From: a bacterium | Lineage (GTDB): Bacteria; Desulfobacterota; Binatia; UBA12015 | DNA length: 55,367 bases | Direction of reading: 5' to 3' | NCBI GenBank assembly: GCA_030430245.1 | Contig: JAUIFY010000006.1 | Span: 1 to 55,367 of the forward strand | Shown here: positions 3,698 through 50,757 of the stretch, one piece after another | How positions within the stretch are numbered: position 1 is the stretch's first letter | Layout of the letters: every line of letters starts with the position of its first letter | Translations under genes and position numbers: made by a program | Notes under the pieces: model-generated | Databases searched by the model: none | Seen by the model: the letters and a program-made list of their open reading frames with translations, nothing else | What the model was told of the DNA's origin: nothing

Positions 3698-3906
3698 GAC
3701 GAGACGCTAGCCGCCTGCGGCGAGTCGGGCCAGTCCGGGGTGGCGGCCGCTTCCCATTTCGGGGAATGCGCCGGTGGAGGAGTCCGGATTCGGGGAATCC
3801 GTCGGTTGGGACGGGCGAAACGGCGGCGGCCGGGGTCGAGGCACGAGGCTTGCTCCCGTCTCTCTGCGAGGCGGCGAAGCGACGCCGCTCGGGGTAGAGC
3901 AAGACG

Positions 3907-4341: not shown

Positions 4342-4401
4342 CCGGGCCGGCCCTCGGAGGTGGACTTGTGCCCGACCGCGGAACGGGCGCAAACTCGCGG
4401 T

Positions 4402-5109: not shown

Positions 5110-5118
5110 GTCCGACCG

Positions 5119-5880: not shown

Positions 5881-5907
5881 GCACCGCCGACGCCCGGTCG
5901 CCGCCCG

Positions 5908-6330: not shown

Positions 6331-6424
6331 GTCCCTTACTAACCAAGGCGCGGCCGGCTCCGAAAGTGCGGTGCGCCCACGGCCGTGGAGCCCGAGTGCG
6401 GCCGGGCGCTCCACGTGTCATTGC

Positions 6425-6916: not shown

Positions 6917-8127
6917 ATCGGCTCGGAGCAGACGGCACCGTCGAGGCGACGGTCAAGCTGAAGCGCGGGAAGGAGGGTCCGATCCGGGCGGGCCATCCGT
7001 GGATCTTCTCGGGCGCGATCGCTTCGTTCGAGGGGGCCTCGGAGCCGGGCGCGGTCGTGCGGATCGAGGGCGCGAACGGCAAGCCGATGGGCGTCGGCCT
7101 GTACAATCCGAACGGCTCGATCGCGGTGCGCGTGTTGTCCGGCCAGGCCGTCCCGTCCATGGGCGACCTCGTCGAGCGGCGGGTGGGCGATGCGATCGCT
7201 CTGCGCCGCGGCCTCGGGCGTATGAGCCCGGGCGGTGCGTACCGGCTCCTGAACGGGGAGGGTGACGGTCTTCCGGGCATCGTGGTCGACGTCTACGACC
7301 GCTTCGTCGTGGCGCAGATCCTGAACGCCGGGGCGGAACGGCTGCGCGGTCTGGTGTTCGACGCGATCCAGGCGGAGCTCTCGCCGGCCGGCATCTACGA
7401 GCGGTCGACGGGCGGTGCGCGGCGCGAAGAAGGGCTCGAGGACCGCGTCGGGCACGCGCGCGGAGAGGAGCCGCCCGAGCGGGTGAAGATCTCCGAGAAC
7501 GACGTCACCTACCTGGTCGACGTTCGCGGGGGGCAGAAGACCGGGTTCTTCCTCGATCAGCGCGACAACCGCGCTCTGGCCGCCGAGCTCGGTCGCGACA
7601 TGCGCGTGCTCGATTGCTTCTCGTACACGGGCGGGTTCGCTCTCGCCGCGGCGAAGGGCGGTGCCGAGCACGTCCGGGCCGTCGAGACCTCCGGCCCGGC
7701 CGTCGAGCTGGCGCGGGCGTCCGCGGAGGCCAGCGGCCTCGACGGCGCGCGGCTCGACTTCCGCATGTCGGACGTCTTCGACGCGCTGCAGCGGGTCGAG
7801 CCGGAGAATCGGCCGGAGATGATCATCCTCGATCCCCCGCCGTTCGCGCGTCACCGCGCCGATCGTGATCGTGCGACCCGGGCGTATCGCGATCTCAACC
7901 GGAAGGCGCTGAAGGCCGTCGCCCCCGGCGGACTCGTCATGACCTTCAGCTGCTCTCCCCACGTGACGCGGGACCTCTTCGTGCACGTCGTCGCGACGTC
8001 GGCGCCGCAGGGCCACCGCCTGCAGTTCCTCCGCGCGCTCGGCGCGCCGGCGGATCATCCGACGCTTCCCGCGCATCCCGAGGGGGAGTATCTCTGCGGC
8101 ATTTTGGTTCGCTGTCTGCCGGACTGA
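6913..8127 (+). CDS. RlmI-type class I rRNA large-subunit methyltransferase
   Basis: 404 residues. An N-terminal PUA-like RNA-binding region (about 10-85, with [15 protein letters not shown]) and a [11 protein letters not shown] link lead to the catalytic domain: [17 protein letters not shown], then [12 protein letters not shown] as the SAM-binding motif, and LDPPPFA near residue 306 as the catalytic DPP motif, followed by MTFSCSPHV. This matches the RlmI family, which makes 5-methylcytidine in 23S rRNA; target specificity is inferred. The catalytic-cysteine motif SCS is present. It starts inside the moaC stop, and a perfect palindrome begins right after its TGA. Confidence 0.9.
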
Positions 8128-8145
8128 TCGTTTCGCGCGAAACGA
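8128..8145. promoter_or_regulatory. 18-bp perfect palindrome, parS-like
   Basis: TCGTTTCGCGCGAAACGA is identical to its own reverse complement and begins one base after the rlmI stop. It matches the ParB-binding parS consensus TGTTTCACGTGAAACA at 12 of the 16 aligned positions; the four differences are the two outer bases and the two bases flanking the central CG. It has no adjoining T-run, so a standard terminator is less likely. It could be a partition-type site, a regulator's operator, or chance. Confidence 0.4.
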
Positions 8146-8220
8146 GGCGTTCCACGGGCCGCGCTCGGCGCGTCGGATTCACGGGTGGAGCCCGGGTGGC
8201 ACGTCGTCCGCTAGAGCGGC

Positions 8221-8892
8221 ATGACCGCACCGTTCGCCCTGGACGACCGTCCCCGGGAGAGACTCGAGCGCGCCGGCGTGGAGGTTCTCTCCGACGGCGA
8301 GCTGATCGCCCTCCTGCTTCGCAGCGGCGACCGGAACGCGACGGCGCGCGCCCTGGCCGAGCGCGTACGCGGGCGGTACCCGACGCTCGCGGCGCTCGCG
8401 GAGGCGAGCCCCGCCGAGCTCGCGCGGATCCCCGGCATCGGGCGCGCGCGCGCCGCGTCGATCTGCGCGGCCATCGCGCTGGGCCGGCGTGCGGATCACC
8501 CGCCGCTCGCCGCCGGCACGCCGATCACCGACTCCTCGCAGGTCTACCGGCACTTCCACGCGCGCCTCTCGGGCCTCAAGCAGGAGCGGTTCTACATCCT
8601 GCTCCTCGACGGAAAGGGCCGGCTGATGCGCGAGCTGCGCGTGTCCGAAGGGACGCTCACCGCGAGCCTCGTCCACCCGCGGGAGGTGTTCCGGTACGCG
8701 GTTCGCGAAGCCGCGGCCTCCGTCCTCCTGGCCCACAATCACCCCAGTGGCGACCCGAGTCCCTCGGCCGAGGACGAGGCGCTGACCCGACGCCTGCGCG
8801 CCGCCGGCGAGCTCCTCGGAGTGAAGGTGCTCGACCACGTCGTTCTCGGGCGCGGCCGGTGGTTGAGCTTCGTCGAGACGGGACGGATGTAG
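8221..8892 (+). CDS. radC: RadC/JAB-domain protein
   Basis: 223 residues, normal for RadC. A helix-hairpin-helix region (ARIPGIGRARAASICAAIAL, about 62-81) precedes the JAB/MPN metalloprotease-like domain, whose zinc motif HNHPSGDPSPSAEDEALT is near residues 171-188. The family is widespread and often near mobile elements, yet its role is unresolved; the early link to DNA repair was withdrawn for E. coli. The ATG at 8221 has no strong Shine-Dalgarno sequence. The gene faces ssb convergently across 143 nt, which may be coincidence. Confidence 0.93.
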   Translation: MTAPFALDDRPRERLERAGVEVLSDGELIALLLRSGDRNATARALAERVRGRYPTLAALAEASPAELARIPGIGRARAASICAAIALGRRADHPPLAAGTPITDSSQVYRHFHARLSGLKQERFYILLLDGKGRLMRELRVSEGTLTASLVHPREVFRYAVREAAASVLLAHNHPSGDPSPSAEDEALTRRLRAAGELLGVKVLDHVVLGRGRWLSFVETGRM

Positions 8893-9035
8893 CGGCCGGC
8901 CCGGGCGGGGCCATTCCACGATGTGAGGGGGGCCGGAGTCTCGACGCCGGTGCTGGGGGCCGGGATCTCGATCGCGTTCGCGGCATCCGCCGCGACGCGT
9001 TGGATCGAATCCCGGCACCGGTCGCGGTCGGGACT

Positions 9036-9449
9036 CTAGAACGGGATGTCGTCCTCGCCGGCGCCGGCGTCGTCGAAGCCGCCCGACGAGCCGCTCGGGG
9101 CGCCGAAGTCGTCGCTCGCCGAGCCGCGGCCGCCGATGAACCGGACGTCACGCGCGACGATCTCGGTGAAGTACCGCGTCGCTCCGTCCTTCTCGTACTT
9201 GCGGGTGCGGATCTCGCCCTCGATGAAGACCTCGCGGCCCTTCTTCAGGTACTTGTTGCAGTTCTCGCCCTGCTGGCCCCAGACGACGATGTTGTGCCAC
9301 TCGGTGTATTCCTTCTTGTTGCCGTCTTGGTCCTTGCCGAACCGGCTCGTGGCGACGGTGAACGTGGCGACCGCTGCTCCGCTCTGCGTGAATCGAAGTT
9401 CGGGATCCTTGCCAAGTCGTCCCAGGATGATCGCCTTGTTGACCGACAT
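9036..9449 (-). CDS. ssb: Single-stranded DNA-binding protein
   Basis: 137 residues. The OB fold opens with SVNKAIILGRLGKDPELRFT and contains ATFTVATSRFGKD and EWHNIVVWGQQGENCNKYLK; the Gly/Ser-rich linker ends in the acidic tip GEDDIPF, which recruits replication and repair proteins. The protein coats ssDNA as a tetramer during replication, recombination and repair. The start is set by a GGAGG located 7 nt before the ATG at 9449. It is divergent from rnj, and the shared 165-nt gap holds the rnj promoter. Confidence 0.95.
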   Translation of the reverse strand: MSVNKAIILGRLGKDPELRFTQSGAAVATFTVATSRFGKDQDGNKKEYTEWHNIVVWGQQGENCNKYLKKGREVFIEGEIRTRKYEKDGATRYFTEIVARDVRFIGGRGSASDDFGAPSGSSGGFDDAGAGEDDIPF

Positions 9450-9539
9450 TCGCGTCCTCCATTGCTCTGGGGCCCAGAAAGCACCTGCCAGGCTTCGCCT
9501 ACACCGCCCGCGCCCGGCGGGCAATGCGCCTCCGTACAA

Positions 9540-9568
9540 TTGACATGGTTTCCCTCGGCTCGTAGGTC
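9540..9568 (+). promoter_or_regulatory. Sigma70-like promoter for rnj
   Basis: A perfect -35 TTGACA (9540-9545), a 17-nt spacer and a -10 TAGGTC (9563-9568) lie 46 nt before the GTG of rnj. The -10 box is weak, but the spacing is ideal and the same TTGAC-N17-TAGG layout recurs at 22342 and 29916. Confidence 0.55.
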
Positions 9569-9614
9569 TCCGCCCCAGGAAGGTGCGGCCTTCCGAGGGA
9601 GGGATGAGGTAGAC

Positions 9615-11267
9615 GTGGCTGGTTCCGTACGGATCGTTCCTCTGGGCGGGCTCGGAGAGATCGGGCTCAACATGATGCTCGTCGAGTCGGAGGGAGCGGC
9701 CATCGCGATCGATTGCGGTGTCCTGTTCCCCGAGCGTCCGGGGCTCGGCATCGATCTCCTCCTCCCGGACCTGACGTATCTCCGCGAGCGGCCGGGGCTT
9801 CTGAAGGGTGTCGTCCTGACGCACGGCCACGAAGACCACATCGGAGCCCTCCCGCGGTTGCTCGAAGAGATGCCCGTCCCCGTGTTCGGACCGCGCCTGG
9901 CCGCCGCCCTCGCCGAGGCGAAGCTCCGCCGGTTCGAGATCGATCATTCCGTCGAGGTGCTCGAGCCCGGAGTCCACATCCAGCTCGGTCCGTTCGAGAT
10001 CGAGCCGATCCACATGACGCACTCGATCGCGGACGCGTGCGCGCTCGCGATCAAGACGCCCCAGGGCGTGATCCTGCATTCGGGCGACTTCAAGATCGAC
10101 CCCCATCCGGTGGACGGGCGCGCGGCGGATCTCGCGCGCGTCGCGCAGTGGGGCGACAAGGGGGTACTGCTCCTCCTCTCCGACTCGACGAACGTGGAGC
10201 ACGAAGGCGTGTGCGGCTCGGAGTCGGAGGTCGGACCGCACATCGAAGAGATCATGCGCAAGACGCCGGGCCGCGTGCTGGTGTCGACGTTCGCGTCGCA
10301 CCTCCACCGCATCCAGCAGGTCGTCGATGCCGCCGACGCGAGCGGCCGCAGTCTCGCCGTCGCCGGTCGCGGCTTCGAGGACTCGACCCGCCTCGCCGAC
10401 GAGCTGGGCTACCTGCGTGCGCCGCAAGGAGGCTTTCTCTCGGTCGACCAGGCGATGCAGCTGCCGGCGAGCGCGACGGCGCTGCTCGTCACCGGCTCGC
10501 AGGGCGAGCCGCGCGCCGCGCTCTCGCGCGCCTCGGAGGGTCGCTTCAAGTCGCTCGAGGTCGAGCCCGGCGATGGGGTGATTCTCTCGTCACGGGTCAT
10601 TCCGGGGAACGAGCGCTCGGTGCACGGGCTCCTGAACCGGTTCGCGAAGCTCGGCGCGACGATCCACCAGGGACACGACAGCCACGTCCACGTCTCCGGG
10701 CACGCCTACAAGGACGAGCTGCGCGAGATGATCAAGATCACCAAGCCCAAGTACTTCGTCCCGGTCCACGGGGAGTACCGACACCTGGCCGCCCACCGCG
10801 ACCTCGCGGCCGAGATGGGCATCCCGCTCGATCACATCTTCCTCCTCGAAGACGGCGACGTCCTCGAGTTCGACGACGTCGGTCCCAAGACCGGCGAGAA
10901 GGCGCCCGTGGGCCGCGTCCTCGTCGACGAGTCGCGCGAAGGCGAGATCGGACTCGAGGTGCTGCGCGACCGCCGCCATCTCTCGGACGGCGGCTTCGTC
11001 GTCGCGGTGATCGCCGTGAACCCGCAGACCGGCGAGATCCGAAGCGAGCCCGAGCTCGTCACGCGCGGTCTCCTGCGCGAAGGCGAGGGCGTCGAGGTCC
11101 TCGACGAAGCGCGCGACGCCATGATGGACACCCTGCGCGAGCTCACGCCGGAGTCCCGCGCCGACTTCCTCGAGGTCGAAGACGAGGTGCGCCGCGCACT
11201 GAAGCGCTACTTCTCGCGCACGCGCGGCCAGCGCCCGCTGATCGTTCCGCACATCTACGAGATGTAG
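9615..11267 (+). CDS. rnj: Ribonuclease J
   Basis: 550 residues from a GTG at 9615 with GAGG (9606-9609) placed correctly; an in-frame stop just upstream rules out an earlier ATG. The beta-CASP metallo-beta-lactamase signature LTHGHEDHIGALP is near residues 69-81, followed by HMTHSIADACALAI, LHSGDFKID, LLLLSDSTNVEHEG, and the beta-CASP stretch VTGSQGEPRAALSR. It ends in the RNase J C-terminal domain (RRALKRYFSRTRGQRPLIVP). RNase J is an endo- and 5'-3' exoribonuclease acting in mRNA decay and rRNA maturation. Its presence argues against a gammaproteobacterial host. Confidence 0.95.
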   Translation: MAGSVRIVPLGGLGEIGLNMMLVESEGAAIAIDCGVLFPERPGLGIDLLLPDLTYLRERPGLLKGVVLTHGHEDHIGALPRLLEEMPVPVFGPRLAAALAEAKLRRFEIDHSVEVLEPGVHIQLGPFEIEPIHMTHSIADACALAIKTPQGVILHSGDFKIDPHPVDGRAADLARVAQWGDKGVLLLLSDSTNVEHEGVCGSESEVGPHIEEIMRKTPGRVLVSTFASHLHRIQQVVDAADASGRSLAVAGRGFEDSTRLADELGYLRAPQGGFLSVDQAMQLPASATALLVTGSQGEPRAALSRASEGRFKSLEVEPGDGVILSSRVIPGNERSVHGLLNRFAKLGATIHQGHDSHVHVSGHAYKDELREMIKITKPKYFVPVHGEYRHLAAHRDLAAEMGIPLDHIFLLEDGDVLEFDDVGPKTGEKAPVGRVLVDESREGEIGLEVLRDRRHLSDGGFVVAVIAVNPQTGEIRSEPELVTRGLLREGEGVEVLDEARDAMMDTLRELTPESRADFLEVEDEVRRALKRYFSRTRGQRPLIVPHIYEM

Positions 11268-11280
11268 TGAGCCTGGTGGA

Positions 11281-11304
11281 CCGCTCGCTCTTCGGGGCGA
11301 GCGG
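11281..11304 (+). terminator. UUCG-loop hairpin after rnj
   Basis: CCGCTCGCTC-TTCG-GGGCGAGCGG forms a 10-bp stem (one G-T pair) closed by a UUCG tetraloop, 13 nt after the rnj stop. This is a very stable RNA hairpin. No U-tract follows (ATAGGA), so it may be an intrinsic terminator of weak type or a 3' stabilising structure. Confidence 0.55.
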
Positions 11305-11487
11305 ATAGGACGCGCGCCTGCTGCAGCGGGCGCAGTATCGTGGGACGTCGCCCGCGTCCCGAAGGCCGGTTGCGCGGGGCCGGCCCCTCCGGCAGCCTCT
11401 TCCTCAGCCAACGAACGGGTGCGTGCACCGTTCGCCCGGCGTTCATGCAGTAAGCGCGCGGTCCCGAACGTCACGAAAGCGACTCCC

Positions 11488-12960
11488 ATGATGAAATCGA
11501 TGGTGCTGGCTCTCGCGGTCCTTCTGCTCGGAACGTCTTCCGCTGCCGCGGACGCAAAGATCCTCTGCACGTCCCGGGGCGGAATCGTCCGGATCCGGGA
11601 TGCCGCGTGCCGCGCGTACGAGACTGCGGTCGACGTGCGGGAGCTCTTGGCGGCGGTGCCCGATCCCGTGCCGCTGCGGGACTGGAGCCCCGCGTCGGGT
11701 CCGTCGGCGTCGGATTCGGTCGAAGCCGGGCTCGAAGCGGTGGCGGCTGCGGGGGCGTCGAACATGTCCAACCTCACGCCCTGTCGGCTGGTCGACACGC
11801 GTCCCGGCTCGTCCTCTGCGCTCGCGGGAGACGACGTGGGTGCGCTGGCGAGCTTCGAGATTCGCACGTACACTCTCGCCGGCTTCTGCGGCGTGCCGTC
11901 GGACGCGACGGCCCTCTCGATCAATCTCGCCGTGGTGCCGGGCCCCGATTCCGGGTTCGTGTCCGTGGGGCCGTCGGGCTCGATTGCGGCCTTCCCACCC
12001 GGCCCGAACTTCGCTTCGATCAACTTCGAAGGGGCGGCGGCCCCGATCTCGAACTCGCTGATCGTGCCGCTCGACGACATGGGTCGCCTCGACGTCTACG
12101 CCGCGCGCAGCACCGACGTGATCCTCGACACGAACGGCTACTTCGCGCCGACCGGAGCCGGCACCAACACCGTCTTCGTACCGGGAACCGACGCGCCGAC
12201 CGACAATGGCACCGCATTGAAGGCGGCGGTGACGGAGATCAACGCGTCGGCCGCGGGCTCGATCTGGACGCTGGAGCTCGGCCCGGGCGTGTTCGATCTG
12301 GGCTCGACGGGGATCACGCTCGAGCGCCCGACCACGTTGGTGGGGGCGGGCCAGCACGCCACGATGGTCACGTGTGCCTGCAGCGGAGACCTCCTGACCC
12401 ATCGGGCAAATGGCATCGAGGTGCGCTCGCTGCACGTCGACAACTCGGATTCTTCGGGCAACGCCCGGGGCATCGTGCTCGACGACGTCGTCGATCAGCT
12501 GATTCAAGACACGTACGTGACGACGGCCGGGAACGACGGGATCGACACGGAATCGGGCACGGTCAACGGCCTCTTGATCGATGGCGTGATCGTGGAGGCC
12601 GAAGACGTGGCGGTCGACGCGGGCATCAACGACACGTTCGTCATCCGGAACAGCGATCTTCACTCGGCGGGGTTCGACGTCGTCCAGCTCTCCGGCGGCG
12701 GCACCCTCACGATCGAGAACTCGACCCTCGAGACCTCGAGCGGGACCCAGCCGGGGATCCACATCTTCGGAGGCGACGCGATCGTGCGCCACTCCCGGAT
12801 CATCACGGGCGGCTCCCCCTATGCGCAGGGAACGTCGGGCAGCCTGCTGATGACCCACACCTTCGTCGATGCGGGGAGTGAGAACATGACGGGAACGTCG
12901 GTCGAGACGTGCCTCGGGACGACGACTCCGTCGACCTCGCACGGGCTCGGCTGCCCCTGA
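11488..12960 (+). CDS. Secreted VDTR-domain and parallel beta-helix protein
   Basis: 490 residues from the ATG at 11488 (or 489 from the adjacent ATG). A signal peptide (KSMVLALAVLLLGTSSAAA) is followed near residue 100 by a domain opening PCRLVDTRPG and closing DVILDTNGYFAP, a module often seen in exported proteins of GC-rich bacteria. The rest, from about residue 230, is a pectate-lyase-like right-handed beta-helix with short repeating rungs (VRSLHVDNSDSSG, LLIDGVIVEAEDV, FVIRNSDLHSAGF, LTIENSTLETSSG). No catalytic Asp/Lys set of a known lyase is recognisable. It may bind or cut polysaccharide at the cell surface; substrate unknown. Its fold resembles the giant protein at 36737-44140, without the repeated opening motif. 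Confidence 0.75.
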   Translation: MMKSMVLALAVLLLGTSSAAADAKILCTSRGGIVRIRDAACRAYETAVDVRELLAAVPDPVPLRDWSPASGPSASDSVEAGLEAVAAAGASNMSNLTPCRLVDTRPGSSSALAGDDVGALASFEIRTYTLAGFCGVPSDATALSINLAVVPGPDSGFVSVGPSGSIAAFPPGPNFASINFEGAAAPISNSLIVPLDDMGRLDVYAARSTDVILDTNGYFAPTGAGTNTVFVPGTDAPTDNGTALKAAVTEINASAAGSIWTLELGPGVFDLGSTGITLERPTTLVGAGQHATMVTCACSGDLLTHRANGIEVRSLHVDNSDSSGNARGIVLDDVVDQLIQDTYVTTAGNDGIDTESGTVNGLLIDGVIVEAEDVAVDAGINDTFVIRNSDLHSAGFDVVQLSGGGTLTIENSTLETSSGTQPGIHIFGGDAIVRHSRIITGGSPYAQGTSGSLLMTHTFVDAGSENMTGTSVETCLGTTTPSTSHGLGCP

Positions 12961-14122: not shown

Positions 14123-15244
14123 TCAGAACGCTCGCTCGTAGTAGAGGTAGCTGATCAGCAGGCCGGCGAAGTAGACGATCGGAAACACCCACTGCGCGAT
14201 CAGGTCGACGCGCTCGGCCATGGGTTTGTGGCCGGCGCGGTACATCGAGTAGACGGCCAGGCTCTCGAAGATCGCCACGCACATGATGACGAACGAGTAG
14301 AGCAGCACGGCATCGGTGAACGTGAAGTACGAGATTCTCGGCATCGTTCCGTCGATCAGGAACTGGTAGGCGACGATCGTCAGGACGCCGATGAACGCCA
14401 GGTTCAGGCGCTCCGACAGGTCGTCCACCTCCAGCCAGAACACCGCCCACATCAGCAGGACGAGGACGATGAGGGGGAAGATCACCTTCCAGATGAAGTT
14501 GCTCGATTGGCGGGTGAGAGAGATGTCGAGGTGGATCTCGGAGATGTCGGTGCGCGGGCCGTCGTACCGCAAGTCGGTCGTGCGGCTCGTCAGGTCGAGG
14601 TTCTCGAAGTGCCACTGCGCGATGTTCACCTGCTGGTTCTTCTCGGCGTACTCCTCCGTCGCCCCGAGCATCTGTTGGTCGACTTCCAGGACGACCTGAT
14701 CGGTGGAGTTGCCGAAGGCGATGAGGTCCGCCTCGAGCGTCTGCTCGTCGAACGGGAAACGATGCAGCTTCATCGGCGTCTCGAGGGTCACGTTGCGTTG
14801 CTCCAGGTAGCGCACCCGTCCGTCGGCGTGGACGACGATCCGGATCGCGTTCGTATCGCCCTTGCCGATCTCGTTGACGATCACGAGCTGGGGCCACCAG
14901 CCGGAGTAGACCTCGTCGAACTGGAACGGGCCCTGGAAGAGCTTCTCCTCGGTGCCCGCCTCCGCGGGATCGAACGCCAGGCGGGGATCCACCCACCGCG
15001 CGCCGATGACGAACTCCGCCTCGAAGGTTTCGTTCACCTCGTCGAGGCTGATGATGTCCGCCAGGAAGATCCCGACCTTCACGATGGTCGGAGAAGCCGG
15101 GGGGTTGGGCATCCCGGCATCCAGGGCCGCGGCGCGCCACGGGAGGGCCAGCACGAGGAGCACGGCGGCGATCGGCGCGAGCGGAACGATCCAGGGAGGC
15201 TTCCGAGGCCCTGAGTGACCAAGACTCCGTTTCATGCGAGACAC
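14123..15244 (-). CDS. Pentameric ligand-gated ion channel (Cys-loop superfamily homologue)
   Basis: 373 residues: signal peptide (to about 40), a roughly 205-residue extracellular domain, then four membrane segments. Superfamily marks: RWVDPRL (83-89; the loop-D W-x-D-x-R-L), YSGWWPQLVIVNE (113-125), FPFDEQ (163-168, equivalent to FPMDVQ in the Cys-loop), the conserved Pro in M1 (KVIFPLIVLVLL), and M2 from DLSERLNLAF to VAYQFL (275-296), close to the ELIC motif SERL...VAYAF. M3 (305-334) and M4 (346-368) follow. The loop cysteines are absent, as in other prokaryotic members; the only cysteine is in M3. Ligand and ion selectivity are unknown; an SERL start to M2 suggests cation channels like ELIC (inference). 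No paired solute-binding or signalling gene is adjacent. Confidence 0.92.
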   Translation of the reverse strand: MSRMKRSLGHSGPRKPPWIVPLAPIAAVLLVLALPWRAAALDAGMPNPPASPTIVKVGIFLADIISLDEVNETFEAEFVIGARWVDPRLAFDPAEAGTEEKLFQGPFQFDEVYSGWWPQLVIVNEIGKGDTNAIRIVVHADGRVRYLEQRNVTLETPMKLHRFPFDEQTLEADLIAFGNSTDQVVLEVDQQMLGATEEYAEKNQQVNIAQWHFENLDLTSRTTDLRYDGPRTDISEIHLDISLTRQSSNFIWKVIFPLIVLVLLMWAVFWLEVDDLSERLNLAFIGVLTIVAYQFLIDGTMPRISYFTFTDAVLLYSFVIMCVAIFESLAVYSMYRAGHKPMAERVDLIAQWVFPIVYFAGLLISYLYYERAF

Positions 15245-36362: not shown

Positions 36363-36740
36363 CTAGCGCTGTTTGGCGTTCGGGTGCGGGATCTTGACGC
36401 GCTCGACCCGTCGCTTCGGGTTTCCGCCGACGCGGATCTGCTTCGGCTTCTCGTAGTAGTACTTCCCGCGCTTGCTGTACGCGCTGCCGCCCTTGGCCTG
36501 CTTCTCCGGATTGGGGATGAGCGCCCGACGGCGCGCGGGCTGGCGCGCGGTCGACGGTCCCTTGCGCGGGTCGCGCTGGATGCGTCCCCCCCGAGGGCGC
36601 TCGGCGCGGGTCCGAAGGCGCTTCGGATTGTAGATCCGACCGCCGCGGCGCCCCTGGGCGCTCGCGTCCTCGGGCAGACTGGTCACGACCAGAGCGCCCA
36701 GGAAGACGGCGAGGACGGCGACGACCGAGAGGCGCTTCAT
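36363..36740 (-). CDS. Small, strongly basic exported protein
   Basis: 125 residues with a signal peptide (VVAVLAVFLGALVVTSLPED, cleavage near 28). The mature part is packed with Arg, Lys, Gly and Pro and has a repeated motif: GGRIYNPKRLR and GGRIQRDPRKG, then ALIPNPEKQAKGGSAYSKRG and HPNAKQR at the end. No family is recognised. Its ATG overlaps the stop of the giant beta-helix gene (ATGA at 36737-36740), so the two are translationally coupled. The giant protein is rich in Asp, so charge-based binding between them, or to surface polysaccharide or DNA, is a testable idea. Confidence 0.7.
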   Translation of the reverse strand: MKRLSVVAVLAVFLGALVVTSLPEDASAQGRRGGRIYNPKRLRTRAERPRGGRIQRDPRKGPSTARQPARRRALIPNPEKQAKGGSAYSKRGKYYYEKPKQIRVGGNPKRRVERVKIPHPNAKQR

Positions 36741-39700
36741 CGATGGGCCCCCAGGTCGGCGAGGTCCCCATCGGGCGGACCGCCGGTCGCGGAGCCCGTG
36801 ACGCCGAGATTCGTCGCGAGGTCGGAGCCGGCGTCGATCGCAGGGCTCGATCCCATCAGGTGGAGGAAATCGTCCTGCCAGGATTCGCCTCCGAGAACGT
36901 CGTCCGCCCCGTCGGGATCGACGAGAAGGGGGTCCTCCTTCGTCTGGACGCCGGTGCCGTTCTGCAGCGAGGACGGGAAGGCGTCGCCGCGCTCGTTCAG
37001 CCCGAAGAGGGTGTAGTCCAGGGTGATCGCGTCGTCCGAGCGCGCGCGGAAGCCGTAGCGGGAGCTCCCGGCCAGGATCGAGTCACGCACCGTGAGGGTG
37101 CTCCTCGCGGAGCGAATCCCGTCGCGGTTCCCGAAGATCGTGACGAACGTGATCGTGCCGTCGGAGCGGGAGATGCGGAGCCCACCGCGGTCGTTCGCGT
37201 AGACGTCGCAGTCCCGGATCTGGAATCCGGTGGCCTTGCGCACGTAGACACCATAGCGCCGGTTCCCGGTTACGATAACCCCCGAAAGCGAGATGCCGTC
37301 CGCATTGCCCATGACGATGCCGTCCCGGTCGGAGCTGGTCACGACGACGTCCTCGATGGAGAGGTCGTCGGATGTGCCCTGGGAGACGATTCCCCGGCGG
37401 CCCCCGGCGATCCACAGCTTTTCGATGCTCACGCCGGTCGCCCGGACCCGGATGCCGTCGCGACGCTTGTCGCGACGGCCGAGGTCCTCGACGGGGCCGC
37501 CGTTTGGATGGAGCCGGACCGAGCTCCGGTCGGGCCCGTTGCCGCGGATGGTGACGTTCGCGACGTCGATCCGCACCGACTCCTCGTACGTTCCCGGTTG
37601 AATCAAGACCGTGTCGCCCTCGACGAGTTGGTCGAGCGCGTGCTGCAGGGTCTGCCAGGGCGTGGACGGGGAGTTCGCCACGTCGCGCGTGCGCGCGTCG
37701 TCGCCGAGCGCCGCGTCGACGTAGAACACGTCCGTCGGAAGCGGGTCGTAGCCGGGCGATGGCAGGGCCGTCGCCGATGAGTCGTAGTGATAGCCGACGT
37801 CGACGATGCCGTCGTCCTCGACGCCCGTCGTCGCGGTGCTGCCTCCGACGCCGAGGCTGGAGACGAGGTCGGAGCCGAAGCCCACCGCGTCGCTCTCGAC
37901 GGCCTGCCCGGCCGCGATCTGCGAGAGGCGGAAATCGTCGTCTTCCCAGTCGGCGCCACCGAGAATTCCGTCCGTCCCGGCCGGGTCGACGAAGTGGGGC
38001 ACGACGGTCTCGTTCGCGATGCAGCTTCCGCAGAAGAGATAGCCCTCGGGATCCAGCGGCGTCGCGTTGGCGTGGAAGCCGTTGTGCTCGAGCAGCGCGC
38101 CCGCGGTGTCGATTCGCAGGCCGGTGCCGCTCGTGTCCGTGAAGAGATTGTCGCGAATCGTCCCGACCGCGTTCAGAAAGCGCGCGTTGCCGAGCCCGTT
38201 CATCGAGATCGTGCTGTGCGCCAGGAGGTTGCCCGTCGAGAGCGGCTCGGTGTCCGGCGTGTTGTCGATGTTCACGCCCCACTCGCCGTTGGCGTACGAG
38301 AGGACGTTGCGGAGGGTCGCATTGGACGTTCGGCGCAGGGTGATTCCGGAGAAGAGGGCGCCGGTCGCGATCGTGTTGTCGATCGTCACGCCGTCCACCT
38401 CGGTGATCCGGATGCCGTCGGTCGACTGGTCCACGGTCGCGCAGTTCGTGATGTGGAGGTCGGGGAACTCGCCGCTGATACCGGTGCTCCCGCCGCGCAC
38501 GACGAGTCCGTCCAGAGTGACGCCCTCGGCGTTGGCCACGATGCCGGTCTCGAACGCGGGCAGAATCAGGGCGGTGCCGGGATCCTCGGCGCGCAAGGTG
38601 AGGCCGGGAACGTCGACGACGATCTGGCCGAGGTACTCGCCCGGAAGCAGCACGATCGTGTCGTCCTCGTCGGCACGGCTGAGAGCGTGGACGATCGTCT
38701 CCCACGGGGTGGTGGGATTGGTCGCGGTGTTGTCCGAGCGGGCGTCGTCGCCGATCGTCGGGCTGACGTAGTAGGTCTCCGACAGGTCGGTGGGCGGCGA
38801 GGCCCAGGCCGGAGCCGCGACGGCGGCCGGGGCACCGTAGTGGAAGCCGACGTCGGCCGTGCCGCCGTCGAGCGTACCCAACGTGACCGTGCTCCCTCCG
38901 ATGTCGAGCGCGCCGACGAGGTTCGAGCCGGCGTCGATCATGGTGCTATCGAAGTTCTCGCCGGCCGCGAGCTGCTGCAGGCGGAAGTCGTCGTCTCGCC
39001 AGCCGAGCCCGCCCAGGATCCCGTCCGGACCCGCAGGGTCGACGTAGCGCGGACTCTTCCCGAGGACGTTCCACACGGAGATGAGCGCCGCGTAGTCGGT
39101 GTCGCGGTCCCGGTCTCGCCCGTTGGTCGCGAAGTTGTTGTGGTGGGCGGCGATGAACGGGCCGGACAGATACAGCCCGAGGTCGACGTGGCCGGTGATG
39201 TTGTTGTCGCGAACCTCGGCGCTCGTCTCGAGCAGGCGGATGCCGTCCTGGTTCTGGTGAACCGTGTTGAAGGCCACCACGTTGGAGAACGAGAAGCCGG
39301 GGCCGGCGGAGTGGTCGAGCGAGATGCCCCACCCACCGTTCGCGTAGACCAGGTTGTTGCGAATGTAGAGACCGCTCGAGCCCTCGAGCTTGATGCCGGT
39401 GCCGCCCGCGCCGGAGACGCGGCAGCTGTCGACGAACGCTCCGGCCGTGTCGACGAGATGGATGCCGTCGGTCGACGGTCCCGCGACGGCGACGTTCGTC
39501 ACGCGGATTCCGTCGGCGCGCACCGCCCGGAGCCCTTTCGCGCCCCCTTCGACGACGAGGTTCTCGATGCGCGTCTCCAGGACGTCTTCGACGGAGATGC
39601 CGAGCCCGGCCACCGGAGGCACGATCACGACGTCTCCCAGTGGCCCGTCGCCGACGAGCGAGATCGCGTTGTCCGTGACCTCGACCTCTTCCGGGTACGT

Positions 39701-42700
39701 CCCGGGAAGAAGGCGAATCACGTCGCCCGGCGAGGACTGGGCGAGCGCGTGGTTGATCGTCTTCCACGGGCTGTCGGGGGATTGGGCGTCTCCGTGACCG
39801 TTGGCGTTGTCGCCGGACACCGGATCGACGTAGAACGTGCTGCCGCTCCCCGGCGCGGGGACGGGGTCCGTCTGCGGCGGGGGCGCGCCGGCGCTGACAC
39901 TCGCGCCGGCGTGCCATCCGGCGTCGGCCTGGCCCGTGTCGGCGACGGCGTCGGTACGGGTCGAGCCCGAGATGTCGGCGGCGGCCACGACGGCCGAGCC
40001 GCGATCGACCGCGGGGCTGTCGACTCCCTGGCCGGCGGCCGTCTGCTGGAGAGCGAAATCGTCGGACGACGGATCGTTGAAGAGGGGGTTGGCGACCAGG
40101 TTCGACCAGAGCGTCGGCTCCTGACCCGTCTCGGTGTCGAACGTCGTCGCACTGCCGAAGAGGATGTTGTGATGGCCGAACACCGGCGCGGTGTCGGTCT
40201 TGAGGGCGACGTTCGTGTTGTGGGAGAGGATGTTGTCTCGAACCTCGCCGGTCGCGTTCTCGAAACGCACCCCGCCGGCCGCGAGCACGCGGCCGCCGCC
40301 GTAGACCGTGTTGAACGCGACGACGTTGTCCGTCGCGACACCGATGCCGCCGGCGATGCCGAGATGGATGCCCCATTCGCCCGCGTCGACCACGAGGTTG
40401 TTGCGGACGTAGACCGTGTCGGTCTGGTCGAGCAGGATGGCCGTGCCGCCCGCGTCGTACGACATGTTGTCGTCGAGAATGACGCCGCTGGTCGTCACGA
40501 CGCGGATCGCGTTGCCGGTCTGGGTCTCGAAGGTGCACCCCTGGATCAGCAGATCGTCGGCGTTCGTGGCGCGGACGCCGTGCACGCCGCCCTGGAACGC
40601 GAAGCCGAGGACGCTCACCCCGGTATGGGCGACGCGCAGGCCGACGTTTCCGGCGCCGGGCATCAGGATCGCCGCTCCGGTTGCCTGGAGGGTCACGTTG
40701 GGCGCGTTCGTTTCGGGCTCGCCCGTGTAGGTCCCGGCCGCGACCAGGACGGTGTCGCCGTCGGCCGCCGCTCCCGCCTCGAGGGCGCGCTCGATCGACT
40801 GCCAGGGGCTGCTCGGGTCCTGCGCGTCGTAGACGCTCAGGGAGTCGTCGCCCGTGTTCGCGTCGACGTAGTACGTGTAGGGCCCGGCGCCGCCCGGTGG
40901 CGGCTGCATGGCCGGGACGCCCGTCGAGGCCCCCGCGCCGGCGTGGTACCCGAGGTTCGCCGTGCCGGTGTCGGCCGCCGCGTCGGTGCGGGTCGAGCCC
41001 GAGATGTCGAGGTTCGCCACGTCGTCGGAGCCGGCATCGACCGCCGGGCTGTCGGCGCCGTGGCCCGTGGCGAGTTCCGAAAGCTGGAAGTCGCCGGTGA
41101 TCAAGACGGGGTCGTGGACGTTGTCCCAGGTCGCCGGCTCCTGGCCGGTCTGGGTGTCGAACCGGGCTCCGTTTCCGACGATGCCGTTGTGGTGCACGTA
41201 GACGGGCGCCGTGTCCGTCTTGACGCCGATGCCGGCGTTGTCGATCGAAAGGTTGTCGCGGATCTCGCCCGTGACGGTCTGGAAACGGATCCCATCGCCG
41301 TTGTTCGCCACCGTGTTGAACGCCACGACGTGCCCGCTCGACGGGCTGGTGCCGTTCACGTTGTCGAGGTGGATGCCCCACCCGGCGTTGCCCTCGATCA
41401 AGTTGTTTCGCACGTAGGCGTTCTGCGCGCGCCGGAGGTGGAGTCCGCGGCTCGCCCCGTCCGAGATCCTGCAGTTCTCGACGACGCCATCGTTGACGTC
41501 TCGCAGCGTGACGGCATCGGAAGAGATCGAGGCGGCGACGGGAGCATGAATCTGCAGTCCCCGGAGAGTGACTCCCTCGATGGCCGGGGCGTTGCTGGTC
41601 GGAGGAGCGACCAGGACACCGCGCTGGTCCGTTTCGATGACGAAGCCCTCGAGAGTGATGTCGTTCGCCTGCAGATCGAACGTCGTCGACCCCGACGGCA
41701 CGGTCACCGTCGTGCCGCCCGGGCTGGCCGCGCGGAGGACGGTCCCATCGCGTCGGATCTCGACCGTCTGCGCTTCGTTGCACGTGCCGGCGGCGACCTC
41801 GACGACCTCGCCCGCGTTCGCCTCGGAGAGCGCGTGGATGATCGTGAGCCAGGGCGTCCCGGGGTTCTGCGCCTCGTGGTCGGTGCGGGTGTCGCTGCCG
41901 GCCGCGCAGTCCACATAGTAGGTCGTGATGTCCGGCGTCGGCGTCGGCGTGGGGGTCGGCGTCGGGGTGGGCGTGGGGATCGGCGTCGGCGTCGGCGTCG
42001 GGGCGGGCGCGGGAGCTCCGGTCGAGTCGCTCGCCGTGGGGTGATAGCCCATGTCGGCCGTGCCGGTGTCCGGGGCTTCGCTCGCGAGCGTGCTCCCCGA
42101 GATGTCGACGTCGGCGGGCGCGCCCGAGCCGGCGTCGATGGCGGGGCTGCTCGGCTGCAGACGCAGGTCGGCGCCGCTCACGAAGAGGGGGTCGGCCGCG
42201 AGATTCGCCCACAGGACCGGCGGGCTGTCGCCCTCGGTATCGTAGTCGGTGGTGCTGCCGAACACGTCGTTGTGGTGGATCGTGGTCGGCGCCGTGTCGA
42301 CCTTGATGCCGACGTTGTCGTTCCCCGAGACGATGTTGTCGCGGATCTCGCCCACCGCCTCCTGGAATCGGATCCCGCCGGAGCTCGTCGCCCCGCCACC
42401 GATGGCGCCCGCCCCGCTCGTCGCCACGGTGTTGAACGCGACCACGTTGCCCGTCGACGTCGGCCCACCGTCGTTCTTGAAGTGGATGCCCCAGTCGTAG
42501 GCGTTCGTGACGAGATTGTTACGAACGTAGATCTGGTCCGAGTGGTCCAGCAGGATGCCGCGGCTCCCGGAGGCGTCGACCGCGTTCGAGTCGAGGATGG
42601 CGCCCGTCGTGTCGACGACCATCACTCCGTTCTGCGAGGCGCCGGTCACCGTGAGGCGTCGGAGGAGAACGCCGTCGGCGTTCGTGGCCTTCACGCCGTG

Positions 42701-44035
42701 TTTTCCGCCGTTCGTCGCGCAGTCGATCTCGAACCCTTCGACCAGCACGCCGGTGTGATCGATCGCGACCGCCGTGGCGTCGAAGGGCGGCTGGATGATG
42801 GCGCCCTCGGTCGTTCGCAGGGTGAAGCTCGAGGTGCTGGTCGAGACGGCCTCGGTGTAGGTGCCGCTCGCGACCAGGATGGTGTCACCCGGGGCGAGCC
42901 CGGAGCTCAGGGCCTTGCCGATCGTCGCCCACGGCGTGAGCGGCGACTGCGCCACGAGGCGGCTTCGATCGTCGTCGCCGCTGGTGGCGACGTAGTAGGT
43001 GGCCGGGCCGGAGGTCGTCGGCGGAACGCCGGTCGACGCGCTGGCGCCCGCGTGGAAGCCGACATCGGCGGTGCCCGCGTCGGCGACGAGGTCCGCTCGG
43101 GTGCTGCCGTCGATGTCCCGTTCGGTCGTGAGGCCCGAGCCGCCGTCGACCGCCGGGCCGGCGATCGCGACGGCGAAGGAGTCGTCCTCGTAGCCCGCGA
43201 TGGTCCCGAGGAGGGCGTCGGTCCCGTCCGGGTCGACGTACGCCGGGTCGAGCGCGATCATGCCGGGGCCGAGCGCGTAGTCGGCGGGATCGAGCGGCAC
43301 GGTGTTCGCGAAGACCAGGTTGTGGTGCAGTGAGGCGTTCGGCGCGTCGATGCGCAGTCCGATCCCCGTGTTGTGCGTGACGACGTTGTCGCGGATCTCG
43401 CCCGTCGCGTTCTTGAGCCGGATGCCGCCCGCACCGTTGTACGCGCTCGTGTTGAAGGCGACGACGTTGCCCGTGGCGACGGGCGGCTGGGGGTCGGAAT
43501 CGTTCGAGTTGTCGAGGTCGATGCCCTGATCCCCGCTGTCGTAGACGAGGTTGTTGCGGACGTAGGCCTGGGACGTGTGGTCGAGCAGGATCCCGCGGCT
43601 GCCGCTGGAGATGGCGCGTGAGCCCTCGATCGTGACCCCGGTGGTTGCCTCGATGCGGAATCCGTCGAAGGCCGCCTCGACGACCGTGCAGTCGCGCACG
43701 ACGAGGCCGTTGGCGCCGATCGCCCGGAGGCCGTGGGACCCGCCGTGGATCTCGATGTCCTGCACCAGGACGTCCGGGTGAGAGATCTCGAGACCGGGAT
43801 CCAGAGCCCCCGGTGCGATGATCACGCGTCCCGGAGATCCGTTCGCGAGGATCTCGACGTTTCCGAAGGACGTCTCGGGCGATTCCGCGTACGTTCCGGG
43901 CGCGACGAGAATGCGGTGGCGGCCCACGGTGGTGTCGACCGTGGCCAGCGCCTTGCCGATCGTGGCCCACGGTGTCGCCTGCGATTGTGCGAGCAGGGCC
44001 GACCGGGCGTCGTCTCCGGTCGCGGCATCGACGTG
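36737..44035 (-). repeat. Seven-unit tandem protein repeat, period about 1045 bp
   Basis: The second residue of the Y-Y/F-Y/F-H pair that opens each unit ends at 44035, 42994, 41917, 40870, 39832, 38770 and 37723. The steps are 347, 359, 349, 346, 354 and 349 codons, all in frame. DNA identity between units is low by eye, so this is an old duplication. Confidence 0.85.
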
Positions 44036-44140
44036 AAAGTCTAAGGCCGATGCGGGGTCGCCGCCGAGAAGCAGGCTGCCGATCGTGGAAACAAAGAGCG
44101 CGACCAGACCGGCGCGCCGGCATCTCGAAAGCGTGTGCAC
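36737..44140 (-). CDS. Giant secreted protein of seven tandem beta-helix units
   Basis: 2467 codons from a GTG at 44140; the ORF is open to an ATG at 44410, but the residues before the GTG are not family-like, while AGLVALFVSTIGSLLLGGDP after it is a good signal peptide. AGGA is only 2-3 nt before the GTG, so the start is uncertain. Seven units follow, each opening with a motif like TYYVDANTGDD, then TPW.TI..AL, GDTVLVA.GTY.E, a right-handed parallel beta-helix of short rungs (repeated YVRNNLV..., TGEIRDN), and closing with DSPAVDAGS... DIGYH-type sequence. A (TP)n linker lies between units 2 and 3. No lyase active site, LPXTG, autotransporter barrel, type IX signal or C-terminal anchor is visible. 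A surface adhesin, a polysaccharide-binding or a lyase-like protein are possible; the repeat-unit name is not known to me. Confidence 0.85.
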   Translation of the reverse strand: MHTLSRCRRAGLVALFVSTIGSLLLGGDPASALDFHVDAATGDDARSALLAQSQATPWATIGKALATVDTTVGRHRILVAPGTYAESPETSFGNVEILANGSPGRVIIAPGALDPGLEISHPDVLVQDIEIHGGSHGLRAIGANGLVVRDCTVVEAAFDGFRIEATTGVTIEGSRAISSGSRGILLDHTSQAYVRNNLVYDSGDQGIDLDNSNDSDPQPPVATGNVVAFNTSAYNGAGGIRLKNATGEIRDNVVTHNTGIGLRIDAPNASLHHNLVFANTVPLDPADYALGPGMIALDPAYVDPDGTDALLGTIAGYEDDSFAVAIAGPAVDGGSGLTTERDIDGSTRADLVADAGTADVGFHAGASASTGVPPTTSGPATYYVATSGDDDRSRLVAQSPLTPWATIGKALSSGLAPGDTILVASGTYTEAVSTSTSSFTLRTTEGAIIQPPFDATAVAIDHTGVLVEGFEIDCATNGGKHGVKATNADGVLLRRLTVTGASQNGVMVVDTTGAILDSNAVDASGSRGILLDHSDQIYVRNNLVTNAYDWGIHFKNDGGPTSTGNVVAFNTVATSGAGAIGGGATSSGGIRFQEAVGEIRDNIVSGNDNVGIKVDTAPTTIHHNDVFGSTTDYDTEGDSPPVLWANLAADPLFVSGADLRLQPSSPAIDAGSGAPADVDISGSTLASEAPDTGTADMGYHPTASDSTGAPAPAPTPTPTPIPTPTPTPTPTPTPTPDITTYYVDCAAGSDTRTDHEAQNPGTPWLTIIHALSEANAGEVVEVAAGTCNEAQTVEIRRDGTVLRAASPGGTTVTVPSGSTTFDLQANDITLEGFVIETDQRGVLVAPPTSNAPAIEGVTLRGLQIHAPVAASISSDAVTLRDVNDGVVENCRISDGASRGLHLRRAQNAYVRNNLIEGNAGWGIHLDNVNGTSPSSGHVVAFNTVANNGDGIRFQTVTGEIRDNLSIDNAGIGVKTDTAPVYVHHNGIVGNGARFDTQTGQEPATWDNVHDPVLITGDFQLSELATGHGADSPAVDAGSDDVANLDISGSTRTDAAADTGTANLGYHAGAGASTGVPAMQPPPGGAGPYTYYVDANTGDDSLSVYDAQDPSSPWQSIERALEAGAAADGDTVLVAAGTYTGEPETNAPNVTLQATGAAILMPGAGNVGLRVAHTGVSVLGFAFQGGVHGVRATNADDLLIQGCTFETQTGNAIRVVTTSGVILDDNMSYDAGGTAILLDQTDTVYVRNNLVVDAGEWGIHLGIAGGIGVATDNVVAFNTVYGGGRVLAAGGVRFENATGEVRDNILSHNTNVALKTDTAPVFGHHNILFGSATTFDTETGQEPTLWSNLVANPLFNDPSSDDFALQQTAAGQGVDSPAVDRGSAVVAAADISGSTRTDAVADTGQADAGWHAGASVSAGAPPPQTDPVPAPGSGSTFYVDPVSGDNANGHGDAQSPDSPWKTINHALAQSSPGDVIRLLPGTYPEEVEVTDNAISLVGDGPLGDVVIVPPVAGLGISVEDVLETRIENLVVEGGAKGLRAVRADGIRVTNVAVAGPSTDGIHLVDTAGAFVDSCRVSGAGGTGIKLEGSSGLYIRNNLVYANGGWGISLDHSAGPGFSFSNVVAFNTVHQNQDGIRLLETSAEVRDNNITGHVDLGLYLSGPFIAAHHNNFATNGRDRDRDTDYAALISVWNVLGKSPRYVDPAGPDGILGGLGWRDDDFRLQQLAAGENFDSTMIDAGSNLVGALDIGGSTVTLGTLDGGTADVGFHYGAPAAVAAPAWASPPTDLSETYYVSPTIGDDARSDNTATNPTTPWETIVHALSRADEDDTIVLLPGEYLGQIVVDVPGLTLRAEDPGTALILPAFETGIVANAEGVTLDGLVVRGGSTGISGEFPDLHITNCATVDQSTDGIRITEVDGVTIDNTIATGALFSGITLRRTSNATLRNVLSYANGEWGVNIDNTPDTEPLSTGNLLAHSTISMNGLGNARFLNAVGTIRDNLFTDTSGTGLRIDTAGALLEHNGFHANATPLDPEGYLFCGSCIANETVVPHFVDPAGTDGILGGADWEDDDFRLSQIAAGQAVESDAVGFGSDLVSSLGVGGSTATTGVEDDGIVDVGYHYDSSATALPSPGYDPLPTDVFYVDAALGDDARTRDVANSPSTPWQTLQHALDQLVEGDTVLIQPGTYEESVRIDVANVTIRGNGPDRSSVRLHPNGGPVEDLGRRDKRRDGIRVRATGVSIEKLWIAGGRRGIVSQGTSDDLSIEDVVVTSSDRDGIVMGNADGISLSGVIVTGNRRYGVYVRKATGFQIRDCDVYANDRGGLRISRSDGTITFVTIFGNRDGIRSARSTLTVRDSILAGSSRYGFRARSDDAITLDYTLFGLNERGDAFPSSLQNGTGVQTKEDPLLVDPDGADDVLGGESWQDDFLHLMGSSPAIDAGSDLATNLGVTGSATGGPPDGDLADLGAHR
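41930..42012 (-). repeat. Hexamer-type repeat encoding a Pro/Thr-rich linker
   Basis: GTCGGC and GTGGGC-type hexamers encode alternating Thr-Pro with some Ala and Ile (PAPTPTPTPIPTPTP then further TP). Changes in copy number would keep the frame. It separates units 2 and 3 of the giant protein. Confidence 0.75.
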
Positions 44141-44875: not shown

Positions 44876-45117
44876 CCCAGGGGCCGCAATCTGCAAGTGT
44901 AGAGCCACCCCGACGAGCGAAATAGGGGCTTTTTGGGCGTTCCGGGTCGTGCAACGACGCACGATCGGGCGAGCCTGCCATGGAACGAGCGTACGTTTGG
45001 GCCCCGACGCGGATCCGGGACGCCACCCTATGGCGTCCGGAGGGTTGGGGAAGGGGCGGGTTTTCCTGAGGACACCGGATGGCCGAGACCTCCCCCGTGC
45101 TCTATGAGAGGGGCATC

Positions 45118-46038
45118 ATGATTGCGACACGATTCATCAGATCGCCAGGGTGGACGGCGGCGGCCGTCGGGGCCCTCGCCGGAGTCCTTCTCCTCCTCCC
45201 GGCGCGAGCGGGGGCCGGTGTCTTCGAGGCGTTCGGGCCGAACTCGGACTTTCCGGACAACAACCTCGTCATGCCGTTCGCCGCCGAGGGATCGCGTCTG
45301 GGCTTCTTCTCGATCTCGAACCTCGGGTTCAGCGGGCCGGGGGGCACGCCCGTACCGGTCACGTGGGAGTTCTACGACCAGAGCGGGGAGCTTCTCGTCT
45401 CGGTCCAGCGCTACGTCCTCGGAGAGGGCGGCACCGACATCGTCGACATCACCCAGGTGCGGAGCAAGGCGGCCGACGGCACCGAGGGGCCGGCGACGAA
45501 CCTCGCCGGCCGGAACGGCTTCGTGGTGGTCTCCAAGGACGATGGCGAGCCCGACCTCGTCGGCAACTGGACGATCGCGAACACGGCTTCGAACGCGGGG
45601 TTCGGCGCGAACGCGGGCGGGCTCGGCTTCGTCGGCATCCTCGCGACGAATAGCTTCCTGTTCGGAACGAGCTTCGCCCCGACGAGTCTGGGCGACAACC
45701 TGCTCATGATCCTTGGCATTGACGACTTCGGCACGACGCCGACGTCGCTCACGCAAGGCGATCCTCCGGCTCCGGGCGCTACGATCTTCACCGTGGAGAT
45801 CAGCCTCCACTCGAACGATGCGCCTTCGGGCGTCATCGGCACGGTTCAGGTGCCGGTGAACGGCTCGGCCCTCTTCACGTCCCTGCAGGAGCTGTTTCCG
45901 GGCTTCGATCTCGGCTCGTCGGTGACGATCGTCGCGACCCCCGTGACCGAGGGCGTGTCGATCATGGGCTACTACGGACAGGCGGTCGGGCAGTTCGGCG
46001 CGGGCCAGTCCCTCCGGACCGACCTGCCCATCGGGTGA
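45118..46038 (+). CDS. Exported hypothetical protein (possible beta-sandwich)
   Basis: 306 residues from the ATG at 45118, with GAGAGGGG as Shine-Dalgarno. The signal peptide (TAAAVGALAGVLLLLPARAG) is clear. The mature part is rich in Gly, Asn, Thr and Phe with alternating hydrophobic strands (LGFFSISNLGFSGPGGTPVP; VTWEFYDQSGELLVSVQRYV; TIFTVEISLHSN), like a secreted beta-rich surface or extracellular protein. No known family. Its TGA overlaps the GTG of thiD (GTGA at 46035), an odd coupling of a secreted protein with a vitamin kinase. Confidence 0.7.
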   Translation: MIATRFIRSPGWTAAAVGALAGVLLLLPARAGAGVFEAFGPNSDFPDNNLVMPFAAEGSRLGFFSISNLGFSGPGGTPVPVTWEFYDQSGELLVSVQRYVLGEGGTDIVDITQVRSKAADGTEGPATNLAGRNGFVVVSKDDGEPDLVGNWTIANTASNAGFGANAGGLGFVGILATNSFLFGTSFAPTSLGDNLLMILGIDDFGTTPTSLTQGDPPAPGATIFTVEISLHSNDAPSGVIGTVQVPVNGSALFTSLQELFPGFDLGSSVTIVATPVTEGVSIMGYYGQAVGQFGAGQSLRTDLPIG

Positions 46039-49220: not shown

Positions 49221-49323
49221 ACGCCGGGCGGGGGGCGGGGCTCGAGACTTCGGCCCGATGCGGGCACATTCCTGGCCCGAAGGCCCCTCGGATGCTTTAA
49301 TCCCACGCGGGGAGAGGTGGAAT

Positions 49324-50757
49324 TTGGAAGAGGAACGCTTGCAGCTAGCCGTATTCATCGACTTCGACAACATCGAGATCGGCGTCAAGACGACGCTTCA
49401 TCAGGAGCTGGATCTCGCCCTGGTCCTCGACGCGCTCCGCGAGCGCGGCGAGGTCGTCGCGAAGAGCGCCTACGGGGATTGGGGGCGCGCCGGGAGTCAT
49501 TCCCGGACGCTGACCGAGCACGCGGTGCACATGGTGCAGCGCAACGTCACACCCCGGGGCGACAAGAACGGCGGTGACATCAACCTCGTCGTGGACGCCC
49601 TCGAGATGGCGTTCACGCGACCGCACATCAACGCGTTCGCGATCGTCGGCGGCGACTCGGACTTCATGTCGCTCGTCGAGAAGCTGAAGCAGTTCGGCAA
49701 GCGCGTGCTCGTCGTGGGCGGCCGCTCGTTCACGAGCGGGATCCTTCAGCGCAACTGCCACGAGTTCATCGCGTACGAGAACCTGCTGTCCGGAGGCCGC
49801 AAGTCGAAGCGCAGCGGCAGCAGTGGCTCGGGCAGCCGCCTGTCGCTCGCCGAGGGCTTCAAGAAAGTTCAGCGCGCGCTCAAGGTGCTGAACGATCGCG
49901 GCGTGCAGCCGCAGCTCGGGCCGCTGAAGAGCACGCTCTTGCAGCTCGACGCGACGTTCAGCGAGCGGGACTACGGCACGTCGTCGTTCCGCGACTTCAT
50001 CTCGAAGCTCGAGAGCAAGCACAAGCTCACGATGACCCGCATCGACCAGGGCTACCTGGTCGAGCTCACCGGGGATGCCGGAACGAACGGGGCGGGTTCG
50101 TCCGACGACGCCGGTGCCGACGAGGCCGAGGTCGAGACCGAGGCGAGCGACGCGGCGGCGACGAAGTCCTCCGACGAGGCCATGGAGCTCCTGCGTCAGG
50201 CCGTCGGCAAGCTCCAGGACCTGCGGCCCGGAAAGCCCACCTACGTGCGCCACATGGCGCAGGCGATCCGGGGGGTGGACCCCGAGTTCGACGAGGCCGA
50301 CTACGGCTTCCGAACCCTCACCGAGCTCATGCACATGGGGGAGCGCGAAGGCATCGTGAAGATGCAGCGTGATCGGCAGGGCGCGTGGCGCGTCACGCCG
50401 ATGGACGGCGGGGACGCGACGAACGGGGGGGCGAGTGACGGCCCGGTGGCCGATCCCGAAGCGGAAGCGGCCCTCGCCGCGGCGACCGCGGCGGCCGCCG
50501 CGGCCCTGAGTGGAGACGCCGATCCGGAGGCCGACGGTCCGGCCGACGAGGACGCGGAGTCCACGAAGGCCGAGCCCAAAGCCAAGAAGAAGGCTGCGCC
50601 GCGGAAGAAGAAGGCCGCCGCCAAAAAGAAGACCGCGGCCAAGAAGACCGCCAAGGCGAGCACGAAGAAGACCACGGCCAAGAAGACCGCGAAGAAGAAG
50701 ACCGCGAAGAAGGCTGCCAGCAAGGAGCCGGTCGCGGAGGCCTCGGCGGCCGAATAG
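49324..50757 (+). CDS. NYN-domain nuclease-like protein with two OST-HTH/LOTUS-like domains and an H1-like tail
   Basis: 477 residues from a TTG at 49324 after GGAGAGGTGG; the ATG at 49258 would add 22 poor residues. Residues 8-155 are a NYN/DUF88 domain: FIDFDN (11-16), GGDINLVVDAL (83-93) and GGDSDF (109-114) hold the acidic residues Asp13, Asp85, Asp111 and Asp113 of the PIN-like RNase site. Two OST-HTH/LOTUS-like domains follow, at 176-248 (KVQRALKVLNDRGVQPQLGP and DYGTSSFRDFI) and 285-358 (AVGKLQDLRPGKP and DYGFRTLTELM). The C-terminus (417-471) is Lys/Ala-rich like bacterial histone-H1 proteins. NYN and LOTUS domains act on RNA; the tail suggests nucleic-acid binding. Convergent with the SNF2 gene, 36 nt apart. 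Confidence 0.88.
   Translation: MEEERLQLAVFIDFDNIEIGVKTTLHQELDLALVLDALRERGEVVAKSAYGDWGRAGSHSRTLTEHAVHMVQRNVTPRGDKNGGDINLVVDALEMAFTRPHINAFAIVGGDSDFMSLVEKLKQFGKRVLVVGGRSFTSGILQRNCHEFIAYENLLSGGRKSKRSGSSGSGSRLSLAEGFKKVQRALKVLNDRGVQPQLGPLKSTLLQLDATFSERDYGTSSFRDFISKLESKHKLTMTRIDQGYLVELTGDAGTNGAGSSDDAGADEAEVETEASDAAATKSSDEAMELLRQAVGKLQDLRPGKPTYVRHMAQAIRGVDPEFDEADYGFRTLTELMHMGEREGIVKMQRDRQGAWRVTPMDGGDATNGGASDGPVADPEAEAALAAATAAAAAALSGDADPEADGPADEDAESTKAEPKAKKKAAPRKKKAAAKKKTAAKKTAKASTKKTTAKKTAKKKTAKKAASKEPVAEASAAE
50574..50738 (+). repeat. Lys/Ala repeat coding region (H1-like tail)
   Basis: Short AAGAAG/ACCGC-type units encode AKKKAAPRKKKAAAKKKTA and more of the same, an H1-like tail of the NYN protein. 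It may be prone to in-frame length change. Confidence 0.7.

Follow-up and report, generated by a model that had tools for sequence, protein, structure and literature searches.

The window (the whole stretch of DNA analysed, 55,367 nucleotides, from a 445-contig assembly) encodes on its minus strand a giant protein of 2,466 amino acids (36737..44137), which is apparently exported. Its reading frame runs from a GTG start at 44137 to a TGA stop ending at 36737, has a GC3 of 0.90 and comprises the 2,467 codons of the original prediction once the stop is counted. A putative Sec-type signal peptide (residues 1–33; 44039..44137), read from the sequence and arranged alike in relatives, is followed directly by unit 1 (ASA-LDFHVD), as in every relative with the N-terminus read. 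Behind it lie, all on the same strand, unit 1 (residues 34–380; 42998..44038), unit 2 with a (TP)n linker (residues 381–739; 41921..42997), unit 3 (residues 740–1088; 40874..41920), unit 4 (residues 1089–1434; 39836..40873), unit 5 (residues 1435–1788; 38774..39835), unit 6 (residues 1789–2137; 37727..38773) and a terminal unit 7, or U7, of divergent type (residues 2138–2466; 36740..37726). The spacings of 347, 359, 349, 346, 354 and 349 residues agree with the proposed seven units at 346–359 codons, the last unit being 329 residues long. Each unit opens with the motif [FY][HY]V...GDDxRS..A..P.TPW.TI..AL and closes with the motif DxGS....DIxGSTxT...DxGxADxGxH; pairwise identities are 28–50%, and U7 diverges from all the others. 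The linker after unit 2 and the lack of a visible anchor had likewise been described correctly, as the chain stops one residue past the closing motif of unit 7. A promoter and terminator scan upstream of the giant gave no signal.

The stop codon of the giant overlaps the start of the next gene in an ATGA (36737..36740, minus strand). The product of this second gene (36363..36740, minus strand) is a small basic protein of 125 amino acids and pI 11.9, with a Sec-type signal peptide from which export is predicted, a mature net charge of about +27 and two GGRI motifs, in keeping with the highly basic secreted protein with GGRI repeats that had been expected behind the overlap. Searches of Pfam, NCBIfam, PHROGs and PDB sequences returned no match to it beyond chance. 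A second P0002 match in the same genome (L002) was rejected as a wrong-frame chance match. An AF2 model made from a four-row alignment reached a mean pLDDT of 57 and contained a short predicted hairpin only, with no confident fold; the best reading of this model is a protein that is probably mostly disordered.

The giant itself matched the Pfam model PF13229 (Beta_helix) with 292.6 bits against a cut-off of 25.9, in seven stretches, which places it among the beta-helix proteins; this model, PF05048 (NosD) and PF07602 (DUF1565) all exceeded their cut-offs, with six to eight matching stretches. A 354-position array profile, built from the matched units themselves, recognised each unit with E-values of 4e-122 to 2e-153, and since the Pfam models match independently of it in six to eight stretches, a chance repeat is excluded. 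Elsewhere in the window, a further apparently exported protein (11419–12960, plus strand) gave a weak beta-helix match (E 8e-7). The product of 14123–15244 (minus strand) is likely a bacterial pentameric ligand-gated ion channel (E 5e-23 with Neur_chan_LBD; 444.9 bits with NCBIfam LGIC_1, versus a cut-off of 500), and 49258–50757 (plus strand) encodes a protein with an NYN domain and an OST-HTH/LOTUS domain.

For units 5–7, AF2 predicted from a six-row alignment three separate beta-helix rods of ~240 residues each, mostly with pLDDT 80–90, and after each rod ~80–100 low-confidence residues that include the closing motif; with a pTM of 0.39, the relative arrangement of the rods is not fixed by the model. 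Of the structure prediction proposed for single units and for the pair, the part on the giant yielded beta-helix rods, and the basic protein was modelled alone. The closest solved folds, by Foldseek and by PDB sequence, were PL6 alginate lyases and mannuronan C5-epimerases, and unit 7 has tail-spike-like PHROG matches. Both observations would suit a giant that binds or degrades polysaccharide, with one glycan site per unit and with the basic protein binding anionic glycans or eDNA beside it. Assignment of the units to a known lyase family with a full active site would have spoken against the original prediction; however, the units showed no active site of a lyase or an epimerase. The column of the catalytic Arg241 of the PL6 lyase AlyGC, located through the R241A mutant entry and read from a profile alignment that is weak there, holds D, K, D, G, D, D and S in units 1–7. 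DPHE, the active-site motif of mannuronan C5-epimerases, is absent as a string from all giants read, which sets them apart from the epimerases, and a conserved catalytic Lys/Glu column sought across 80 units was not found, save for an E at 77%. Judged from these residues, PL6-type or epimerase catalysis by the units is unlikely, and we consider the wider polysaccharide role improbable, although binding without catalysis is conceivable.

Scans in which a capped number of candidates was scored for each genome detected the basic protein in 10 of the family's 14 genomes. They found it in none of 134 further genomes of the class, nor in any genome from outside the family in a phylum-wide sample; the collection scan used a five-row subset of an alignment too divergent to be used in full. 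Giant arrays are present in all 14 family genomes; outside the family, the class contains five single weaker array matches only, and the phylum sample none at the same cut-off. An ATGA-overlapping basic gene lies behind the giant at each of the nine loci, from five genera, in which a U7-bearing giant is assembled through to its 3' end (G000, G001, G002, G003, G005, G007, G008, G010 and G012). The question of whether the basic gene follows beta-helix giants in other genomes is thus answered positively, with the same overlap throughout, and the coupling of the two genes is conserved. In genus g1 both are under purifying selection (omega 0.17–0.31 for the basic gene and 0.26–0.45 for units 6 and 7). 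The named records are metagenome assemblies labelled 'Deltaproteobacteria bacterium', and a literature search found no matching description.

In a tree of 80 units, position in the chain rather than genome of origin determined the grouping (U1 99/96, U5 100/98, U6 100/100 and U7 100/100), which indicates that the layout is older than the genera. U7 was seen only in giants with a basic gene behind them; unit and adjacent gene occur together in nine of nine cases and are both missing in four of four. In the giants of genus g2 (G004, G009 and G013), and likewise in a second giant of G005, the last unit is of the U6 type and no basic gene follows. Homologues lacking the basic gene had been named in advance as a ground for rejecting the pair, and here the outcome was divided: all nine U7-bearing giants have the gene, but the g2 giants and the second G005 giant are without an adjacent one. 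The joint occurrence points to U7 as a possible partner-binding place; however, as U7 and the basic gene are contiguous, it may reflect one deletion or insertion and is suggestive rather than proof of interaction. Pieces of the second G005 array, with its U6-type end, were located at the end of one contig and the start of another (L028, G005:C4; L029, G005:C5), and the g2 giant of G004 (L021, G004:C17; giant frame 2069–11476) contains long beta-helix-like stretches without unit caps.

The whole block, consisting of the DFPD gene, the giant, the basic gene, fabI, OEP/ABC genes and purA, is syntenic across the family, so that adjacency by itself is weak evidence. The DFPD gene, the divergent neighbour of the giant (45079..46038, plus strand), encodes an exported orphan with a GPNSDFPD motif, for which no Pfam, NCBIfam or PDB sequence match was obtained; it has paralogues in most family genomes and is possibly a third component. 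The fabI of the locus was found in exactly the ten genomes with the basic gene, and because it is also missing from G006, G009, G011 and G013, the lack of the basic gene in these four genomes may be due to gaps in the assemblies. The basic gene of G004 occupies the syntenic locus between the DFPD gene and fabI, with no giant there and another giant elsewhere in the genome; its product has kept the signal peptide but is more diverged, and less basic, than any other copy. Persistence of the basic protein without a U7-type giant at its locus is therefore possible; the rpoB tree leaves genus g2 unplaced, and both loss and original absence of the giant at this locus fit.

These findings bear on two other explanations of the pair. 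Two exported proteins with separate roles might simply share one operon, as the synteny of the whole block and the joint presence of the basic gene and fabI in G004 without the giant would allow; against this, the 4-base overlap is kept at nine of nine loci, while the spacing between the basic gene and fabI varies, with an MFS gene between them in three g1 genomes, and we regard such plain neighbourhood as quite improbable. The basic protein might instead be a periplasmic helper that shields the acidic giant or guides it outward and is absent from the final structure. Its own signal peptide, small size, lack of a confident fold and translational coupling fit a dedicated helper, but such proteins are usually folded and often conserved past one family, neither of which applies here, and G004 keeps the gene without an adjacent giant, though another giant is present in that genome. 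A helper role thus appears unlikely.

The isoelectric comparison foreseen for an Asp-rich fibre and its basic partner gave a pI of about 4.3 for the whole giant versus 11.9 for the basic protein. The units of the giant in the window carry charges of -14 to -37, and the basic proteins about +10 to +27 past their first 30 residues. However, in five of the six giants that allow a comparison with neighbouring units (G000, G001, G002, G005 and G008), no unit is less acidic than U7, which lies beside the basic gene; the exception is G010, in which U7 has a charge of -18 versus -10 and -12 in its neighbours. The charge argument is consequently weak and does not single out U7, although a pairing of charges is plausible at the level of the entire fibre.

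The pair is best read as a two-part exported structure, given that the basic gene follows the giant at nine of nine loci and that no lyase site was found in the units. The original suggestion of a two-part extracellular structure gains from both of these points and loses from the unpaired giants, the solitary basic gene of G004 and the weak charge argument. Tentatively, and at somewhat less than an even chance, we propose that the basic protein binds the giant and that the pair has a structural or adhesive role, for example as a fibrous coat or adhesin; its location outside the outer membrane, the physical binding and the role itself are all inferred. The giant would leave through Sec as seven rigid, acidic right-handed beta-helix rods on short linkers. 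Through the ATGA coupling, the basic gene would be translated right after U7, and a cationic, mostly disordered product would be made along with the giant. It would then bind the giant, possibly on U7 or close to it, and tie it to other giants or to an anionic outer surface. The gspD-type secretin matches in all 14 family genomes offer a possible way across the outer membrane. A more specific version, a two-component outer coat of one family in which the terminal bead of a polyanionic bead chain is paired with a disordered, lineage-specific polycation that holds a lattice or surface together, is conceivable but rather doubtful. Whatever the case, the analysis defines a conserved module, one gene of which encodes an orphan partner protein, in bacteria seen here solely as metagenome assemblies, and it makes the pairing of an acidic repeat fibre and a disordered cationic protein open to concrete tests.

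Among known systems, the proteins matched by PF13229, PF05048 and PF07602 share with the giant a right-handed parallel beta-helix domain per unit; in the giant, by contrast, seven complete units are strung together in a single exported chain that ends in a specialised unit, and a basic gene is coupled to it. Its best NCBIfam match, NF047854, models a beta-helix-type surface protein of Leptospira (LIC10774/LIC10365), but the giant scores 150.6 bits versus a cut-off of 380, which leaves it outside this family, and the match falls into several distinct parts of the array. The closing motif of the units resembles the choice-of-anchor Q domain (NF041518), with a sub-cut-off score (E 0.0067; 16.6 versus 25 bits) and no terminal anchor after the units of the giant. 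AlyGC (5gkd) and AlgE4/AlgE6 have the same beta-helix fold and are the top Foldseek and PDB sequence matches, whereas neither the PL6 catalytic Arg nor DPHE was found in the giant and the whole-chain TM-score is low (0.18, query). In two-partner secretion (TpsA/TpsB), two genes encode a giant beta-helix exoprotein and an outer-membrane barrel partner. The locus in the window is alike in its two genes and giant beta-helix exoprotein, but it falls outside that system in that the partner is a basic soluble protein of 125 amino acids and not an outer-membrane barrel.
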